Assembly: GCA_026415355.1 (NCBI GenBank)
Contig: JAOAHF010000005.1
Coordinates: 1-64,000 of the forward strand
Length of the DNA: 64,000 nt
Direction: 5' to 3'
Origin: Brevinematales bacterium
GTDB lineage: Bacteria > Spirochaetota > Brevinematia > DTOW01
Shown here: positions 20,941 through 56,115 of the stretch, piece after piece
How the letters are laid out: each line of letters starts with the position of its first letter
Position numbering within the stretch: the first letter of the stretch is position 1
Position numbers and translations under genes: made by a program
The notes under the pieces: generated by a model
The model's database searches: none
What the model was told of the DNA's origin: nothing
What the model saw: the letters and a program-made list of their open reading frames with translations, nothing else

Positions 20941-23403
20941 TCATTCTAATCTTTCTAAATAAGATTCATCGACGAATATTTCTCTAGGCTTACTACCTTG
21001 CTGTGGTCCGACTATACCTTCTTCCTCCATACGTTCTATCATTCTAGCAGCGCGGTTATATCCTATTCTCAGCCTTCTCTGTAAATAAGAGGCAGAAGCC
21101 TTTTTCTCTCTTACAACTATTTTGATAGCTTCATTGTAAAGTTCATCTGAAAATTCTTCTCCATCATAATCTTCTAACTCTTCGTCTTTGCTTGTGATCT
21201 CAAGAAATGATGATAAGTCAACATAGTTTGGAGTATCTTGTTGGATTAGATAGTTTACAACTCTTTCGACTTCTTCATTAGATATGTAGCATCCTTGTAC
21301 TCTAAGGAGTGATGGATGTGATGGACTTGTGAATAGGAGATCTCCTTTACCTAGGAGTTTTTCTGCTCCTATTGTATCTAGTATTGTTCTTGAATCGACT
21401 TTTGATGCAACTCTAAAAGCAACTCTTGCAGGAAAGTTCGCTTTTATAAGTCCTGTAACTACATCGACTGATGGTCTTTGTGTTGCTATTATTAGGTGTA
21501 TACCAACTGCTCTTGACATTGCGGCAAGACGTGTTATGTAATCTTCTGTTTCTTTTGGTGATGTCATCATTAGATCGGCATATTCGTCTATTATTAAAAC
21601 TATGTAGGGTAATTTTTCTAAGCTTTCGTCATTTAATTTACTAACTTTTAGATTATATTGCACTATATCTCTGCTTCCTAGGTATTCAAGTTTTTTGTAT
21701 CTGTACTGCATTTCATCAACAAGCCATTCTAAAACTGCTTTAGCTAAAGATGGTGTTGTTATGACAGGGGTAAGCAAATGGGGTATACCGTTGTAGATCT
21801 TGAGTTCAACTATCTTAAGATCAATCATTATAAATTTAAGTTCGTCTGGTCTTTTGTTGAATAGCAATCCTGCTATTATTGAATTAACGTAAACACTTTT
21901 ACCAGATCCTGTTGATCCTGCTATGAGTAAATGTGGCATTTGAGTTAGGTCTTCTACTACAGGTTTACCGTGTATATCGACTCCTATAATTAGTGGGAGT
22001 TTAGCTTTTGTTTCTTTGTAGTCTTTGCTTTCCAAGACTTCTCTGATTTTCACTGTTCTTCTAACTTTATTAGGTATCTCGACGCCTATTACAGATTTGC
22101 CAGGAATAGGATAAACAATTCTAACTCTAGATGTAGCTAGATTTAGTGCCAAGTTGTCAGAGATATTAACTATTTTTGTTATTTTTGTTCCAGGTTTAGG
22201 TCTGACTTCGTACATTGTAACAACAGGTCCTCTGACAACTCCTTCTATGTCTGCCTCTATTTTAAATTCATTGAATGTATCTTTTATTGTCTTTTTTGTT
22301 TCTTCTATTTCTCTCTGAATTTCTAAACTATTTATAGTATCTATTTCAGGCTTGTCAAGTAGTTCAATGGGTGGGGGATAGTTACCTGTAAATAATCCTT
22401 CTTCGAATATCTCTTTCATTGAAGTTGTAGATTGTTTAGAATATTTATCTTTTGTGTTATTTTCTTCAACATCAGATATGTCGTCTATGATGTCTTTGAA
22501 GTTGTTTTCATGGTATTTATTGTTATATGTGTTTATTGTATCTTCAAGGTCTTCATCTTGATTTGTATTGGTTGATATTATCTCTACATCCCTTATGACT
22601 AGTTTTTCTTGGTTATTTAGAAGGTATTTAGGTTTTTGATAGTGTTGGTATTTATTGTATGAGTTTATTTCTAAGTTGTCTAGACTATTTTTGAAAGTAC
22701 TAAAGGGTTTATAGTCTTTGAAGTTTTCCATTTCGTCATCTATTTCTGTTATCTCAATAAACTTTTCATTTTTGTTTCTTGTAGTGTTTGTCCTGTATGA
22801 TGTGTTTTTAGAAGAGTAGGAGGTTTTTGATGATGAGTTTTTACTTACTGAGGTTTCGAAATCCGGAGTTTCCGTATATTCGAAGATTGATTTTAGAAAT
22901 TCATAGGTTCTTTGTAAGGTTGTGATTGTTCCTGCTAGAAATAGAGATAATATCTTAGATAAGCTTTTGTAGGAGGTTAAGGTTAGAAGAATTCCAACTA
23001 TGAATAATAAGTAGAGAATAATGTAAGAGAGTGTTATTCCAAATGAAGTTAGGAGTATATTTGATATATCATAGGGTATCATCCCTATAATGTAGGGTTT
23101 GCTATTTGAGTTTGAGATACCATATATCCCTAACCAACTTATTGTTATTAGTTCTACACCCAGAAGATTCTTGAAAAAATAGTAAAAGGGTTTTTTGAAA
23201 AGTAGAGGAATAAAAACAAGTATCAATAACCCCATGCAGATGAGAGTATTCTCTTCACCTGCTAATACCCTTACATTATAGACTATCCTTCTTAATATAG
23301 AAGACAAAATGTTATCAAACCCTAATAGGAAGGGATAGTAGGCATATGTTAGCATAGTTGAAAGTATTAAGAATATAAATACCCCTCCCAGAACTCTTCT
23401 CAT
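20941..23403 (-). CDS. ftsK: DNA translocase FtsK/SpoIIIE
   Basis: 820 residues. Several membrane helices fill ~1-150, followed by a low-complexity polar linker (~165-340) rich in Asn, Asp, Ser and Lys. The motor has the alpha/beta region (YEVRPKPGTKITKIVNI), Walker A AGSTGSGKSVYVN (~residue 501) and Walker B YIVLIIDEYADLMM. The C-terminal winged-helix gamma domain (~757-820: ASASYLQRRLRIGYNRAARMIERMEEEGIVGP) reads polar DNA sequences. FtsK segregates the terminus and activates XerCD at dif. A dif-like site and polar motifs lie in the same window. One motif copy lies 95 bp upstream of its start. Confidence 0.95.
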   Translation of the reverse strand: MRRVLGGVFIFLILSTMLTYAYYPFLLGFDNILSSILRRIVYNVRVLAGEENTLICMGLLILVFIPLLFKKPFYYFFKNLLGVELITISWLGIYGISNSNSKPYIIGMIPYDISNILLTSFGITLSYIILYLLFIVGILLTLTSYKSLSKILSLFLAGTITTLQRTYEFLKSIFEYTETPDFETSVSKNSSSKTSYSSKNTSYRTNTTRNKNEKFIEITEIDDEMENFKDYKPFSTFKNSLDNLEINSYNKYQHYQKPKYLLNNQEKLVIRDVEIISTNTNQDEDLEDTINTYNNKYHENNFKDIIDDISDVEENNTKDKYSKQSTTSMKEIFEEGLFTGNYPPPIELLDKPEIDTINSLEIQREIEETKKTIKDTFNEFKIEADIEGVVRGPVVTMYEVRPKPGTKITKIVNISDNLALNLATSRVRIVYPIPGKSVIGVEIPNKVRRTVKIREVLESKDYKETKAKLPLIIGVDIHGKPVVEDLTQMPHLLIAGSTGSGKSVYVNSIIAGLLFNKRPDELKFIMIDLKIVELKIYNGIPHLLTPVITTPSLAKAVLEWLVDEMQYRYKKLEYLGSRDIVQYNLKVSKLNDESLEKLPYIVLIIDEYADLMMTSPKETEDYITRLAAMSRAVGIHLIIATQRPSVDVVTGLIKANFPARVAFRVASKVDSRTILDTIGAEKLLGKGDLLFTSPSHPSLLRVQGCYISNEEVERVVNYLIQQDTPNYVDLSSFLEITSKDEELEDYDGEEFSDELYNEAIKIVVREKKASASYLQRRLRIGYNRAARMIERMEEEGIVGPQQGSKPREIFVDESYLERLE

Positions 23404-23497
23404 ACATAATATTTTAACTCTGTTTCTTACCTTTTGTCTATTTACTTGATAAAAATAAAATGTATATAGTTGTTTTGCAATTATTGTGAGAGAGTCA

Positions 23498-23513
23498 AAA
23501 TTATGTTAACTTG
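23498..23513 (+). repeat. Copy 1 of the polar AAATTATGTTAACTTG motif
   Basis: Exact 16/16 match, in the 247-bp divergent region between ftsK (-) and the lptD-like gene (+). On its right the + strand is A/C-rich for about 70 bp (TTTTAGAAAACAAAACAC…); on its left it is G/T-leaning. No other structure is seen in this intergenic region. Confidence 0.8.
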
Positions 23514-23650
23514 TTTTAGAAAACAAAACACTTCAAGAAATCCTAGAATAATACAGACATTTACTTCTAACCTAGACTATTGTTGAGAGAGATTCAGTTA
23601 CTTTATAAATTGAATGAGAGTGGCTAGTTTTTTGATAATTTCTGAGATTT

Positions 23651-26600
23651 ATGCGATTTATTTTGTTAGTATTTTTAATACTTAAATTACTGATTTTTTA
23701 TCGTTTGGATGGTTTCGCTAATTTACTTACTAATGTAGTTTCTAATTCAAGCTTGAATGTTCAAGCAAACGCAGAAGTTTTGTATCCAGGGATTTTGTAT
23801 TCAAAGTCGTATGACATTATTGATATAAGTAATGTGGATTTGAATAAATATGTTGTTGTAAGAAGTTTTGATAGTATTGAGGTTTCTTCAAAGAGTAATG
23901 TTTCAATAATATTTTTCAGAGGTGGTGTAAATGCTGTCTATCAGGATAAAAAACTCAAGTGCAAGTCTATTACTGTCTTTCTTATTGACAATACTGTGAG
24001 AGAGATAGTAGGTGAAGGTGATGTTAGGTTTGTTAGTGGTAAAGATTTGTTTGAAGGAGAAAAGTTCTTTTACGATCTAAGTACTGGTAAGATATCTCTT
24101 TATGAAGCTAGAACAAAGCTTGATGATCAATTTTACTATGCTGATATCATGAAGCAGTTGGATAGTAATAGGTATTTTTTTGAGAATGTGTTTTTCACAA
24201 AGAGTGATTTGCTTTTTCCTACATATAAGGTTAGTGCTTTTAGAGTTTGGTATTATAGAGGAGATTATCTGTTATCTGTTAATAATTCCTATAGTGTTGG
24301 TGTTGGGTCTTTTCTTTATTTTCCTACTTATCTAGAGTTTTATAGGTATACAGATATATTTACAGATTTTGGTGTTGAAAGAAGTATAGGTTTTTACATC
24401 CAGAACACATTCTATCCTAGGAACTGGTGGGGTGAGAGATTTTTTCCGAGACTCAAAGTGAAGTTTGATCACTATGAGAAACTTGGAGAATACTTAGGTT
24501 TTGAAGTACCTAGTATACCTTTGTTATCGAACTTGAATGTGAATCTTATAGTTGATCTTGAGTATGACAAAAAGTATGAACAGAAGGGAAGTTACATAGT
24601 TAATTTCATAGATCAGTATGGAAAAAATGATTATAGGGAGTACAGAACGTTTGGATGGTATTATAACCTTAAGCTTAACTATAGCGTTAGTGGTACTTCA
24701 GTGAGTTTTTCAACTGAAAATTTAAATGATCCGTTTTTACCTTCAAAGTTTTCATCACGTCGTGAGAGGTTTGATGTTAGAAGATTTATTTTTCCTAATG
24801 AGAACCTATTTTGGTCTCTTCCTGGTCCTAAGCAGAGTGTATCAAGAAATTTGAAAATATCTTATCAATATGGTATATCGTCTTTGAATTTAGGTATCGA
24901 TTGGGTTTATCAACTTAGATCTGGTTATAGTATTACTAATACTAATAGTTTTGGTGTTGTTATAGTGAAAAATAAGACTAATAAGTATGAAAATGATTAT
25001 TACAGGTATGATTTACAGAGGTTATCGGGACCATATTTGTATTATTCGGCTAATCTTGGTAATTTTATTTCGTATACATATGAGAAGAGTTATACTAATG
25101 TTTCTTTAAAGGATAATGTTACTCAGCCTAGAATATTCTCGAAATATACTACAAATGAATTTGTGATAGGAACTAACTACTTTAATACAAATCTAATTGT
25201 TGTACAAACGATGTACTTAACAAATTTTATTACAAACCGTGTTGGAAGCAATACAAACTATGTGATTAGTATTATTACAAACATCTCTACTAATTTTTTT
25301 GTCAGCACTAATCTTATTCGTTTTGTTAGCATAACAGATCTTACTAATAACACTAATTTAGGTTCTAATTTTGTGGGTATTAGCGGTACAACTAATTTGG
25401 TACAGTATGGATATTCTGCGAAGTTTATGACAAATATTTCTAGTTTTAAGTGGCTTCAGTTTAGTGTTTCTCCGTCTGCTTCTGTTTCTGTTGTACCTAA
25501 TTCTGTTTATAAGGTAGAGGATGGAACACCGATAGAAGATACTTTTACTCATACTGAGTTAGTCAACATATCTGCTTTATTAGGACTTTTTAATAACGTA
25601 CTTTCGATAAGTTCTTCGACAGGGATAAGAAATAATAATATATGGACTAGGACGGATAACATAAATAGAAAAAAACAAGATGATCTTAATTCTTCGGCTA
25701 CACTGGGTATATCAAGCTCTGCGAGTTTGTCCGACGGATTTTTTAAAGGTACTTTTGTTTTTTTTGAACCTAGAGTTTCTGTATCTCATAATGTATCTTA
25801 CAGACTTACATTACCAAAGTTTTTATCTCCAGAAGAGGATCCTTATGTTGATAATGTAATTGCTCATAATTTATCTGGTAGCGTTTATTTTAGGTTTTTA
25901 GATTTAACCGTGCTTTCGAATTCTCTTCTAAATTTCGTTGGTTTTTCTTCTGTTATACTTTCCACAGCTTTGTCTTATAATTTACTTTACCTGAAGAGTG
26001 AGATTAAGTACAAAGAGGATAAAAGTTATTGGACTAATAAGATTTCCAACCCTATAGGTGTAAATATTTCTTTTGGTCCTTTGTTTAATTATAGTATTTC
26101 TTATAGAGTAAAGCTTTCTAACGATATTGTGGTGTTTGATCCTGTAGGTGTTGGTATGTCGGGTGGTTTATCTGTTAGGGATTTATCATTACTGTATCTT
26201 ATAAAAAAAGTAAATTTCATTAACATAAATTATCAACTTTTCTTTGACTACGTTAATCCAATAAATAATCGTTTTTCTCTTTCTTTTTCTATTGGGGGGA
26301 ATATTGATGAAAATTGGAGTTTTGCTTTATCAACTAGTATAGTTAACAACAAGATTTTCAGATATGTTCCCGAGTATGCTTTAAGATACAATGTACCCCA
26401 GGTTAATATTATTCAGGATATAGTTGATGCTATAAATATTTTTGATATAAATGCCCTTAGAAGAACGCTCTTCAAAAACACGGGGGTTACGATATCTATT
26501 TTAAGAGATCTTTATGATTGGATTGCTTCGTTAAGCGGGGGTATTAGGTTGTATAAGGATGAAGTTAGAAACTTTGCTTTTTTTGAACCTTATGTTAGTT

Positions 26601-29711: not shown

Positions 29712-29822
29712 AAATTAAATATACAAATTTGAAAACATTATGTCAATATTTTAGTTGATATAAATCACTCAATATAATGTGACACTTTTTTTAATTTACT
29801 GAATTTCTTTGTATGTCTATAC

Positions 29823-29838
29823 AAATTATGTTAACTTA
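29823..29838 (+). repeat. Copy 2 of the polar motif
   Basis: 15/16 match (last base A). It is followed by a strikingly A/C-rich + strand from about 29845 to 29900 that continues mildly into the start of the next gene. A small inverted repeat GTGCT/AGCAC around an A tract lies at 29841-29862. The gap lies between two divergently transcribed genes. Confidence 0.75.
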
Positions 29839-29935
29839 TGTGCTTTAAAAAAAAACAGCACAAAAAACAGCAACCTCCAAACAACCATTTACAAAATAGA
29901 AAAATTACTAAGAATCCATATAAAATATATCTACA

Positions 29936-32136: not shown

Positions 32137-32179
32137 GTAATTACGATGTTAGAGAGTAAGTATTTTTTAGTAAGTTTTT

Positions 32180-32195
32180 AAATTATGTTAACTTG
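32180..32195 (+). repeat. Copy 3 of the polar motif
   Basis: Exact 16/16 match in the hisC-nadA gap, followed by TTTGT and then a long + strand run made almost only of A and C (about 32201-32258). The A/C excess extends into the first ~120 bp of nadA. Confidence 0.8.
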
Positions 32196-32277
32196 TTTGT
32201 AAAAAAGAAAAAAACAACAAAACAAAAACCAAACTCAACCTTGAAACCAAAAAAAAAATTAGTTAAATATTTATCAT

Positions 32278-45323: not shown

Positions 45324-46022
45324 ATGATACTTGGTGTAATTCAAGCAAGGGTAAATTCGGATAGATTTCCTTTCAAAGTTTTAGCTAGATTTTCAGATGG
45401 TACAACAGTTCTTGAGAGAGTTATAAGGCAGGTTAAACATTCGAAGCTAGTAGATAATATAGTTGTGGCTACCAATCATTTATCTTTTGGTATTATCTCG
45501 TCTTTCGTAATGAGTAAGTTTAATGATGTTAATGTGGTTGCAGGTTCTGATGAAGACGTACTTGATAGATTTGTAAACTGTGTTAGTGTCTTTGATGATG
45601 TTGATCATGTTGTAAGAATAACAGCAGATAATCCACTAACATGTCCCAGGTATATAGACAAAGTAGTAGAAATACATTTAAAAGATAAGGCAGATTTAAC
45701 TCATTTTCTGGGGATACCTTTGGGTACAGGTGTTGAAGTTATAAAATTTGAAGCATTAGTTATGTCTTCGAAGCTTGCGATCGACGAATATGATAGAGAA
45801 CATGTAACTCCTTATATATACAAAAACAGAAAGATATTCAAAGTTTTGGAACCTGTGTATGAATATGGTAACTTCCAAGATATAAGAGTCACGTTAGATA
45901 CTCAAGATGATTATAATTTCATAGATGTTCTTCTTCATAGGATGGGATATAAGATACCAGTTTTTGTTGAAGATGTTATCAAATTTGCTCCTAGCTTAGT
46001 TACAACGGATATAAGAGATTAA
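45324..46022 (+). CDS. SpsF-like cytidylyltransferase family protein
   Basis: 232 residues. It begins MILGVIQARVNSDRFPFKVLA, the SpsF/CMP-sugar synthetase opening (IQARxxSxRxPxK). It continues with NIVVATNHL, DVNVVAGSDEDVLDRFVN, VVRITADNPLTCPRYID, EYDREHVTPYIY and RVTLDTQDDYNFI. These match the 'spore coat polysaccharide' cytidylyltransferase-like family, which activates acidic sugars for surface glycans or flagellin glycosylation. It is 7 bp from flgD, so a flagellar glycan role is attractive but unproven. The start ATG 45324 has a weak AGGTG. Confidence 0.82.
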   Translation: MILGVIQARVNSDRFPFKVLARFSDGTTVLERVIRQVKHSKLVDNIVVATNHLSFGIISSFVMSKFNDVNVVAGSDEDVLDRFVNCVSVFDDVDHVVRITADNPLTCPRYIDKVVEIHLKDKADLTHFLGIPLGTGVEVIKFEALVMSSKLAIDEYDREHVTPYIYKNRKIFKVLEPVYEYGNFQDIRVTLDTQDDYNFIDVLLHRMGYKIPVFVEDVIKFAPSLVTTDIRD

Positions 46023-46058: not shown

Positions 46059-46086
46059 ATTTCCGATAATAAATATTATGTTAACT
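46059..46086 (+). other. dif-like XerCD recombination site (includes polar motif copy 4)
   Basis: A 28-bp site: left arm ATTTCCGATAA, 6-bp centre TAAATA, right arm TTATGTTAACT. Compared from memory with known dif sites, the right arm differs from the E. coli XerD arm TTATGTTAAAT at one base. The whole site agrees with the B. subtilis dif at 23 of 28 positions. Motif copy 4 (46073-46088, 15/16) forms its right half. It lies between a + strand gene end and pstC, in the part of the window where composition suggests the replication terminus. Confidence 0.6.
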
Positions 46087-46116: not shown

Positions 46117-46166
46117 TTTACAATCACTTTACAATTATTTTACACTAGGCAGAAATAATTTTTACA
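46117..46166 (+). promoter_or_regulatory. Pho-box-like direct repeats upstream of pstC
   Basis: TTTACA at 46117, 46128 and 46139, each separated by exactly 5 bp (11-bp period), with a fourth TTTACA in phase at 46161 ending on the A of the pstC ATG. This is the layout of PhoP/PhoB binding boxes. AATAAT at 46154-46159 could be the -10 box. Confidence 0.6.
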
Positions 46167-47104
46167 TGGATCTAAGTAAGTTTAAGTTAAAGTTAGATCT
46201 AAAGTCTAGAAGGAAGTTCGGTGATGTAATTGCAAAGGGGTTTATATACTTTGTTGCTTTCCTGGCTATACTACTTTTGGTTTTTATAATTGTTTTTATA
46301 TTCAGAGAAAGTTTTCTTATTGTTACAAAGGGATTTGTAAAAGGGTATGCTTCGCTTGACAGGCTTTTTTCGTCGGTATGGCAACCTATTTCTTCCGAGC
46401 CGAAGTACGGAGTTATACCTTTAATGGTAGGTTCTTTGAAAATATCCATTATTGCTTTATTAATTGCTATACCACTTGGCGTTTTTTCTGCTTTGTATGT
46501 CAGTGTTTATGCTTCTAGGAGAATTAAGGAATTCATAAAACCAGTTATAGAGCTTATAGCAGGTTTACCTACTGTTGTGATAGGATTTTTTATGCTTATG
46601 GTCGCTGCATCTTTTTTGCAGGAATTGTTTCAATGGGACTATAGATTGAATGCAATTGTAGGTGGAATTGGTGTAAGCATAGCAATCTTACCAGCCATAT
46701 TCACAATAGCTGAAGATGGAATGAATACAGTACCGAAACATCTTGTAGAATCTGCTTATGCATTAGGGGCGTCAAAACATCATATTGCTTGGCGTGTCAT
46801 TTTACCTTCTTCTATAAATTACACGTTCTCAGCTATAATAATAGGTGGCATAAGAGCTTTTGGTGAAACTATGATAGTTCTAATGTGTACAGGGAATGCT
46901 GCTGTATTGACTTTTGACTTTATGCTACCTACCAGAACAATGGCGGCAACTATAGGTGCCGAAATGGGTGAAGTTGTAATAGGTGATGAACATTATGCTG
47001 TCCTCTTCTTCATAGGTTCAATACTTCTAACTTTTACTATAGTATTCAATATGCTAGCAAACTATATATCATCAAGGATAAGGGCAAAAATGGGTATTTC
47101 ATGA
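46166..47104 (+). CDS. pstC: Phosphate ABC transporter permease PstC
   Basis: 312 residues, six membrane helices. VLLVFIIVFIFRES at the start, YGVIPLMVGSLKISIIALLIAIPLG, ELIAGLPTVVIGFF, the EAA-loop AYALGASKHHIAWRVILPS and GGIRAFGETMIVLM are typical of PstC. With PstA, PstB and a binding protein it imports phosphate at high affinity. It leads pstC-pstA-pstB-phoU; no pstS is in the window. There is no Shine-Dalgarno sequence, and the promoter is so close that the mRNA may be leaderless. Pho-box-like repeats lie immediately upstream. Confidence 0.94.
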   Translation: MDLSKFKLKLDLKSRRKFGDVIAKGFIYFVAFLAILLLVFIIVFIFRESFLIVTKGFVKGYASLDRLFSSVWQPISSEPKYGVIPLMVGSLKISIIALLIAIPLGVFSALYVSVYASRRIKEFIKPVIELIAGLPTVVIGFFMLMVAASFLQELFQWDYRLNAIVGGIGVSIAILPAIFTIAEDGMNTVPKHLVESAYALGASKHHIAWRVILPSSINYTFSAIIIGGIRAFGETMIVLMCTGNAAVLTFDFMLPTRTMAATIGAEMGEVVIGDEHYAVLFFIGSILLTFTIVFNMLANYISSRIRAKMGIS

Positions 47105-53125: not shown

Positions 53126-53730
53126 AACTTACTAGGATACTTGTAGCAACTTCTAATAAAGGTAAGTACAATGAAATAGCTGATATAATCTTGGGAGTAT
53201 TACCTGGTATAGAAATTCTCTCTCTGTCTGATTTGCCTAAAATACCTCCCCCAGTCGAGAATGGTAAAACTTTTTTTGATAATGCACTTATAAAGGCAAA
53301 GTATTACTATAGTGCTTACAACATTCCTTTAATATCGGAAGACTCAGGTTTGGAAGTTAATGCTTTGAATGGGGAACCGGGTGTTATGTCTGCAATATAT
53401 GCTGGTGAGAACTCAACGCAGGAAGATTTAATAAGAAAATTACTCAAAAATATGGAAAACAAGACAGACAGGAGTGCAAAGTTTGTCTGTTTAGCTGTTT
53501 TTATGTATGGTAAGGACAGATATTTGTTTTCAGAAGGTATTGTTAGAGGTAAAATAGCTTATGAACCTAGAGGACAGTACGGTTTTGGGTATGATCCTGT
53601 TTTTATACCTGAGGGGTATGATAAAACATTTGCTGAATTGGGTAGTAGTGTTAAGAATAGAATAAGTCATAGGAGGGAGGCTATTCTGGGTTTGTTGCTT
53701 GGGATGAGGGATTTGGGTTGTTTTTTGTAG
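53122..53730 (+). CDS. rdgB: XTP/dITP pyrophosphatase (RdgB/HAM1)
   Basis: 202 residues. LVATSNKGKYNEIADI at the start (SNxxK motif), PVENGKTFFDNALIKAKYY, SEDSGLEVNALNGEPGVMSAIYAG and YGFGYDPVFIPEGYDKTFAEL are diagnostic, ending with ISHRREAILGL. It removes non-canonical purine triphosphates. It overlaps the SurA-like gene through ATGA. The last ~100 bp of the gene are extremely G/T-rich on the coding strand (encoding LLGMRDLGCFL), part of the compositional switch at 53.75 kb. No terminator hairpin is seen after it, only T-rich sequence. Confidence 0.95.
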   Translation: MKLTRILVATSNKGKYNEIADIILGVLPGIEILSLSDLPKIPPPVENGKTFFDNALIKAKYYYSAYNIPLISEDSGLEVNALNGEPGVMSAIYAGENSTQEDLIRKLLKNMENKTDRSAKFVCLAVFMYGKDRYLFSEGIVRGKIAYEPRGQYGFGYDPVFIPEGYDKTFAELGSSVKNRISHRREAILGLLLGMRDLGCFL

Positions 53731-53773
53731 TTTTTGTTTTTTTTCTTTTTTTGGTGTTTTTTTGTTACACAAA

Positions 53774-53789
53774 CAAGTTAACATAATTT
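53774..53789 (-). repeat. Copy 5 of the polar motif, at the strand-composition switch
   Basis: Exact 16/16 match on the minus strand (CAAGTTAACATAATTT on +). The + strand to its left, including the end of rdgB, is strongly G/T-rich; to its right it becomes A/C-leaning and stays so to the window end. An ATTGTTGATAA stretch on the minus strand, 8 bp before the conserved arm, faintly resembles a XerC arm. Confidence 0.8.
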
Positions 53790-53898
53790 TAATTTTATCA
53801 ACAATTCACCTGCAGACTTCCGGTACACCATTTAGGACTATTTTTGAAATAGTAAAGGTTAGACATTGATAATTCTAGCTTGCGTAGGAGACAATAAG

Positions 53899-55959: not shown

Positions 55960-56054
55960 GAATCACCCATATAGTATTTTGAAAAGCAAAGATGGGACTT
56001 GAGTGTCCGTTTTGTGTTCCTGGGTGTTCCTTGGTTGTGGAGTTTTTACACAGA

Positions 56055-56070
56055 AAAGTTAACATAATTT
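56055..56070 (-). repeat. Copy 6 of the polar motif
   Basis: 15/16 match on the minus strand, in the gap between convergent glyS and pyrD, so it cannot be a promoter for either. The ~60 bp on its left (55990-56050) are G/T-rich on +, opposite to glyS and the surrounding region. No hairpin terminator was found in this gap. Confidence 0.78.
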
Positions 56071-56115
56071 TAAAATAGTATAAGAAATTCAACACCATAA
56101 AACAATGAAGGACTT

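Follow-up and report, generated by a model that had tools for sequence, protein, structure and literature searches.

What is the 28-bp element that lies next to pstC in this spirochaete chromosome, and what are the copies of its right half that surround it? The genome (G000; 1.76 Mb, 80 contigs, 97% complete) was analyzed together with genomes of its relatives. The window denotes the whole stretch of DNA that was analyzed, the 64,000 nucleotides of contig C5 from 1 to 64000; feature coordinates are collected in Table 1.

The element reads ATTTCCGATAA-TAAATA-TTATGTTAACT, and the layout proposed in a preliminary description, an XerC arm, a 6-bp centre and an XerD arm in 28 bp, was found as described. 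The agreement reported there with B. subtilis dif (23/28 positions) was reproduced upon recounting against the B. subtilis sequence, ACTTCCTAGAATATATATTATGTAAACT. With both arms, a free centre and ≤3 mismatches, one site was found in the window, when 0.02 were expected. A whole-genome search with TTTCCNATAATNNNNATTATGTTAACT (≤3 mismatches) for further two-arm sites returned this element as its sole match and none with the reversed-pattern control, consistent with one dif per chromosome in a genome that is 97% complete. Matches to TTTCCNATAATNNNNATTATGTTAACT, mostly single, were detected in 35 of 60 relatives, which points to Spirochaetota-wide conservation; spirochaete dif sites were predicted earlier (PMC3025954). 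The cumulative GC skew over the whole of contig C5 climbs to about 2,900 at 44–56 kb and then drops. The element lies at this maximum, the GC-skew switch of the terminus, and no better unique dif was found at a skew extreme elsewhere.

Far from lacking Xer recombinases, the genome encodes two tyrosine recombinases. The best score is XerC for the one on C5 and XerD for the one on C4, both below the strict NCBIfam cut-offs, and the expected catalytic residues were read by eye in both proteins. FtsK is also encoded, 22.7 kb from the element (23 kb in the preliminary description). Judging from these protein families, XerC would bind the left arm and XerD the right arm, and FtsK would activate dimer resolution. 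The element thus matches the known XerCD/FtsK dif sites in length, arms, centre, single occurrence, position at the skew switch and partner proteins, FtsK with its gamma domain included, with no notable difference; it is bordered by the gene at 45324 and by pstC. The strong dif candidate is therefore upheld by its uniqueness in the genome, its conservation in relatives, its position and its recombination proteins, and it is almost certainly the chromosomal dif, where fused chromosomes (dimers) get separated. Taken alone, this dif is routine.

As first described, pstC adjoins dif, at a distance of 80–129 bp in G000 and three congeners. TTTACA repeats resembling a Pho box follow dif in all four genomes (in 11-bp phase in G000), suggesting that pstC has its own ordinary phosphate promoter.

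Table 1. Coordinates of dif, the array copies and associated features (window numbering unless a locus is named)
Feature	Position	Strand	Remarks
dif	46059..46086	+	XerC arm 46059-46069, centre 46070-46075, XerD arm 46076-46086
ftsK	20941..23403	-	alpha, motor and gamma domains
Array copy (XerD half-site + extension)	23497..23521	+	between ftsK and gene at 23651
Array copy	29822..29846	+	diverged extension, weakest in set
Array copy	32179..32203	+	exact 18-mer, upstream of nadA
Array copy	53766..53790	-	exact 18-mer
Array copy	56047..56071	-	2 mismatches to 18-mer
A/C-rich, G-poor tail of 29826 copy	29846..29895	+	
A/C-rich, G-poor tail of 32183 copy	32199..32248	+	
A/C-rich, G-poor tail of 53776 copy	53722..53771	-	
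pstC	46166..47104	+	dif neighbour in four congeneric genomes
Probable Pho box of pstC	46117..46144	+	three TTTACA, 11-bp spacing, read by eye; not part of dif
Matching origin-like regions	L061 ~16.6-17.4 kb, L079 ~9.6-10.4 kb, L067 ~7.9-8.7 kb		TGTGCRT cluster, CCAAAATATTTTGG palindromes, one AATTATGTTAACTTTGTGC

Six exact copies of the right arm, TTATGTTAACT, are present in the window, at 23501+, 29826+, 32183+, 46076+, 53776- and 56057-, in every case between genes. When two mismatches were allowed there was no excess over chance (69 found vs. 68 expected). The copies other than dif are a separate family, AATTATGTTAACTTGTTTGTT, rather than failed dif sites: they consist of the XerD arm, without an XerC arm, and an extension conserved as TTGTTTGTT, after which the DNA is often rich in A/C and poor in G. 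Exact matches to the 14-mer AATTATGTTAACTT number seven in the whole genome, and five of these fall within the window. Alignment of 31 copies from five genomes of this bacterial family yielded AAATTATGTTAACTTGTTTGTT, then a stretch of ~45 nt in which A and C often prevail and G is scarce; 10 of the 11 arm positions are invariant, and conservation is strong up to the end of TTGTTTGT. Tails with ≥80% A+C follow 13 of the 31 copies, vs. 0.2% of background 50-mers, so that the A/C tail is common, although not universal. One array copy of G001 (C13:17540-17600, L058) is flanked by the inverted repeat GGGGGGGGGAAAAA...TTTTCCCCCC, so that the motif may lie in the loop of a hairpin. As to known RNA elements, the Rfam matches in the window were two tRNAs only.

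The partner arm separates dif from the array. The left arm matches the XerC arm at 11/11 positions in the 46059 copy, and at 1–5/11 (mean 3.0; shuffled sequence, 3.4) among the 31 array copies of the five genomes, whereas dif sites match it at 9–11 positions; the earlier remark that only the 46059 copy has a good partner arm is thus confirmed. Lacking an XerC partner arm, the array copies are half-sites at which recombination is not expected. When G000 was scored with a weight matrix derived from the other family members, the six copies on C5 were recovered at 19–36 bits, random-sequence peaks reached 9–20 bits, and dif scored 9.9 bits, inside the null range; the weakest copy, 29826, scored 19.4 bits and overlaps the top of the null. 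The low score of dif indicates that it has just the XerD arm in common with the array. The proposal that dif is one specialised member of the motif family therefore holds for the 11–14 bp of the XerD arm, but fails beyond it, where the 9-bp extension is absent from dif. The dif arm of G003 has become TTATGTTAAGT (...AAGT) while the array there mostly retains TTATGTTAACT (...AACT), which argues that dif and array are not strictly coupled.

The three best-assembled genomes (G000, G001 and G003) were searched with the extended motif TTATGTTAACTTGTTTGT at ≤2 mismatches. Each has six copies within ~36 kb of dif. In G001 copies occur only on contig C13 (13.6–45 kb; dif at 34.8) and in G003 only on C10 (1.5–34.5 kb; dif at 11.4). 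In G000 they occur on C5 (23.5–82.5 kb; dif at 46.1), where the weaker 29826 copy, with 3 mismatches, is the sixth, and one more (C15:11172) lies on a contig that is not joined to C5. All copies on the three terminus contigs (18/18) are oriented towards dif, an outcome far from chance, though the copies are not all independent. Among the 31 copies from five genomes the GC skew is positive in the motif orientation without exception, some values near the terminus being close to zero; by this sign, all 31 are assigned to the leading strand heading to the terminus.

The copies are not tied to particular genes, and those next to them mostly differ from one species to another. Copies sit in divergent, convergent, co-oriented and antisense settings. 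On the contigs compared, the genes next to the six G001 copies all lack orthologues on C5 of G000, and two positions are shared, G001 C13:17478/17563 with G002 C152 and G000 29826 with G004 C100.

The array is also narrowly distributed. Among 393 genomes of the phylum, multiple copies were found only in five members of this bacterial family; three other genomes have a single, chance-like match each with 1 mismatch, and the extended motif is absent from the other families of the class. In six genomes, representing three of those families, the DNA around dif holds no array, only a 1-mismatch arm in one genome, which indicates that XerD function does not generally need the array. When 85k species were scanned for the 20-mer, it was encountered in just two MAGs, which belong to this family. 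An exact 18-mer TTATGTTAACTTGTTTGT is present in two viral contigs (L138:3129-3146 and L139:4514-4531), in both without the A/C tail; these two matches are probably due to chance rather than a sign of a phage source or of a phage using the site.

The exact 14-mer is also present, once, in an origin-like 1-kb region of G000 (C3:124.5–125.4 kb; L082:9500-10400). This region holds 14 of the 17 TGTGCRT (DnaA-box-like) words in 88 kb, together with palindromes of the type CCAAAATATTTTGG, and is close to the skew minimum of C3, as is its counterpart on C30 of G001; the GC-skew signal is weak on the G003 contig. In all four congeneric genomes the same 14-mer, followed by TGTGC, is found in the matching region (Table 1) beside different genes. 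We consider this cluster, with its one AATTATGTTAACTTTGTGC, the probable oriC of the genus. The origin element is flanked by different genes from one species to the next and thus appears to move; the occurrence of the 14-mer at the probable origin as well as at the terminus suggests that its reader may act at both chromosome ends.

What, then, might read the array? The right arm of dif is known to be read by XerD, which is therefore the most economical reader of the identical array arm; on the strength of this identity, XerD quite probably binds the array copies. The genome encodes SMC (a 1113-aa frame) and ScpA, the two proteins on which the presence of SMC-ScpAB is judged here. In B. subtilis, by the account given in PMC10945525 and PMC8357415, XerD that occupies sites of its own unloads SMC in the terminus. 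The array copies share with these sites (XDS) an XerD-type half-site devoid of an XerC arm and a place in the terminus outside dif. The comparison covered site type and location; the array may differ from the XDS in its strict inward polarity, the TTGTTTGTT extension, the A/C tail and the origin copy.

The half-site identity, the missing XerC arm, the confinement to the terminus, the polarity and the restriction to one family lead us to propose, with a probability of roughly 0.55, that the array consists of XerD-binding half-sites that most likely unload or stop SMC as at the B. subtilis XDS, here in a polar and extended form. XerD would bind the half-sites around dif, and the bound XerD would unload or stop origin-loaded SMC-ScpAB as it arrives at the terminus, and the polarity may be set by a second factor that recognizes the extension. 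The XDS-like unloading or stopping of SMC, taken on its own, is a tentative assignment that our analysis places a little short of even. The presence of SMC and ScpA, the B. subtilis precedent and the absence of Tus and RTP favour this XDS-like reading over a fork barrier or FtsK guidance. Against it, XerD alone does not explain the extension, the tail and the polarity; the dif arm and the array are uncoupled in G003; relatives of the class have dif without an array; and one G000 copy lies on a contig separate from C5. If the XDS-like reading is true, it would suggest that the second job of XerD, clearing SMC from the terminus, is widespread or was reinvented. A polar half-site array around dif may mark the chromosome end point for machines that travel along DNA, and it offers defined sequences with which to ask about polarity in SMC unloading, FtsK stopping and fork arrest.

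We regard as doubtful a broader scheme in which a family-specific terminus system, made of XerD or a new protein sharing its half-site and a second factor reading TTGTTTGTT and the A/C tail, would form one-way barriers for SMC, FtsK or forks around dif; with the 14-mer at the probable origin too, one protein may then mark both chromosome ends.

The Tus-Ter and RTP-Ter fork traps are likewise laid out as polar sites that flank the terminus and face inwards, and the strand-asymmetric A/C tail suggests action on one strand. The array could accordingly be a polar replication-fork trap, operated by XerD or another protein, that forks enter towards dif and in which they are halted on leaving. However, neither Tus nor RTP was found in the genome by searches that recovered the E. 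coli and B. subtilis controls, and the array core has the very sequence of the XerD arm, for which a dedicated terminator protein would have no need. We therefore consider a fork trap unlikely.

A role in guiding or halting FtsK near dif, in which XerD bound at a half-site would meet FtsK gamma and slow or park the translocase one way, appears more improbable still. It would agree with the gamma domain of the encoded FtsK, with the established action of FtsK gamma on XerD in E. coli and with an array polarity that fits translocation from the origin to dif. Like KOPS, the array switches polarity at dif, but with ~six to seven copies confined to the terminus it is much too sparse and too restricted in extent to serve as a KOPS-like loading sequence; an orienting sequence of that kind, which would be abundant along whole replichores, was rejected.

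That the copies are transcription-factor operators or promoters unrelated to XerD is very improbable: they do lie near gene ends (typically 50–150 bp from a gene), and palindromes of the same core adjoin promoter-like sequence in another spirochaete of the phylum, G049, but their neighbours are mostly non-orthologous and found in every orientation, their strand tracks replication direction in 31/31, their range is limited to the terminus, and the 31-copy alignment has no conserved upstream hexamer. On these grounds a regulon was rejected.

G049 shows arrangements of its own. Half-sites are numerous there and, as read by eye, not polar around its dif. Three inverted dif-like pairs, ~190 bp apart (L132, C1:696150-696480; L133, 901780-902100; L130, 137600-137950), adjoin glycan or methyltransferase-like genes, and two of them have a promoter-like TTGATA...TATAAT between the sites; they are possibly Xer-driven invertible promoters. 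At two further loci (L134, C1:968950-969130; L135, 91450-91620) there are a palindromic AATTATGTTAAGTTAACATAATT and paired copies around a TTGACT -35 element, and the same core looks in G049 like a repressor operator.
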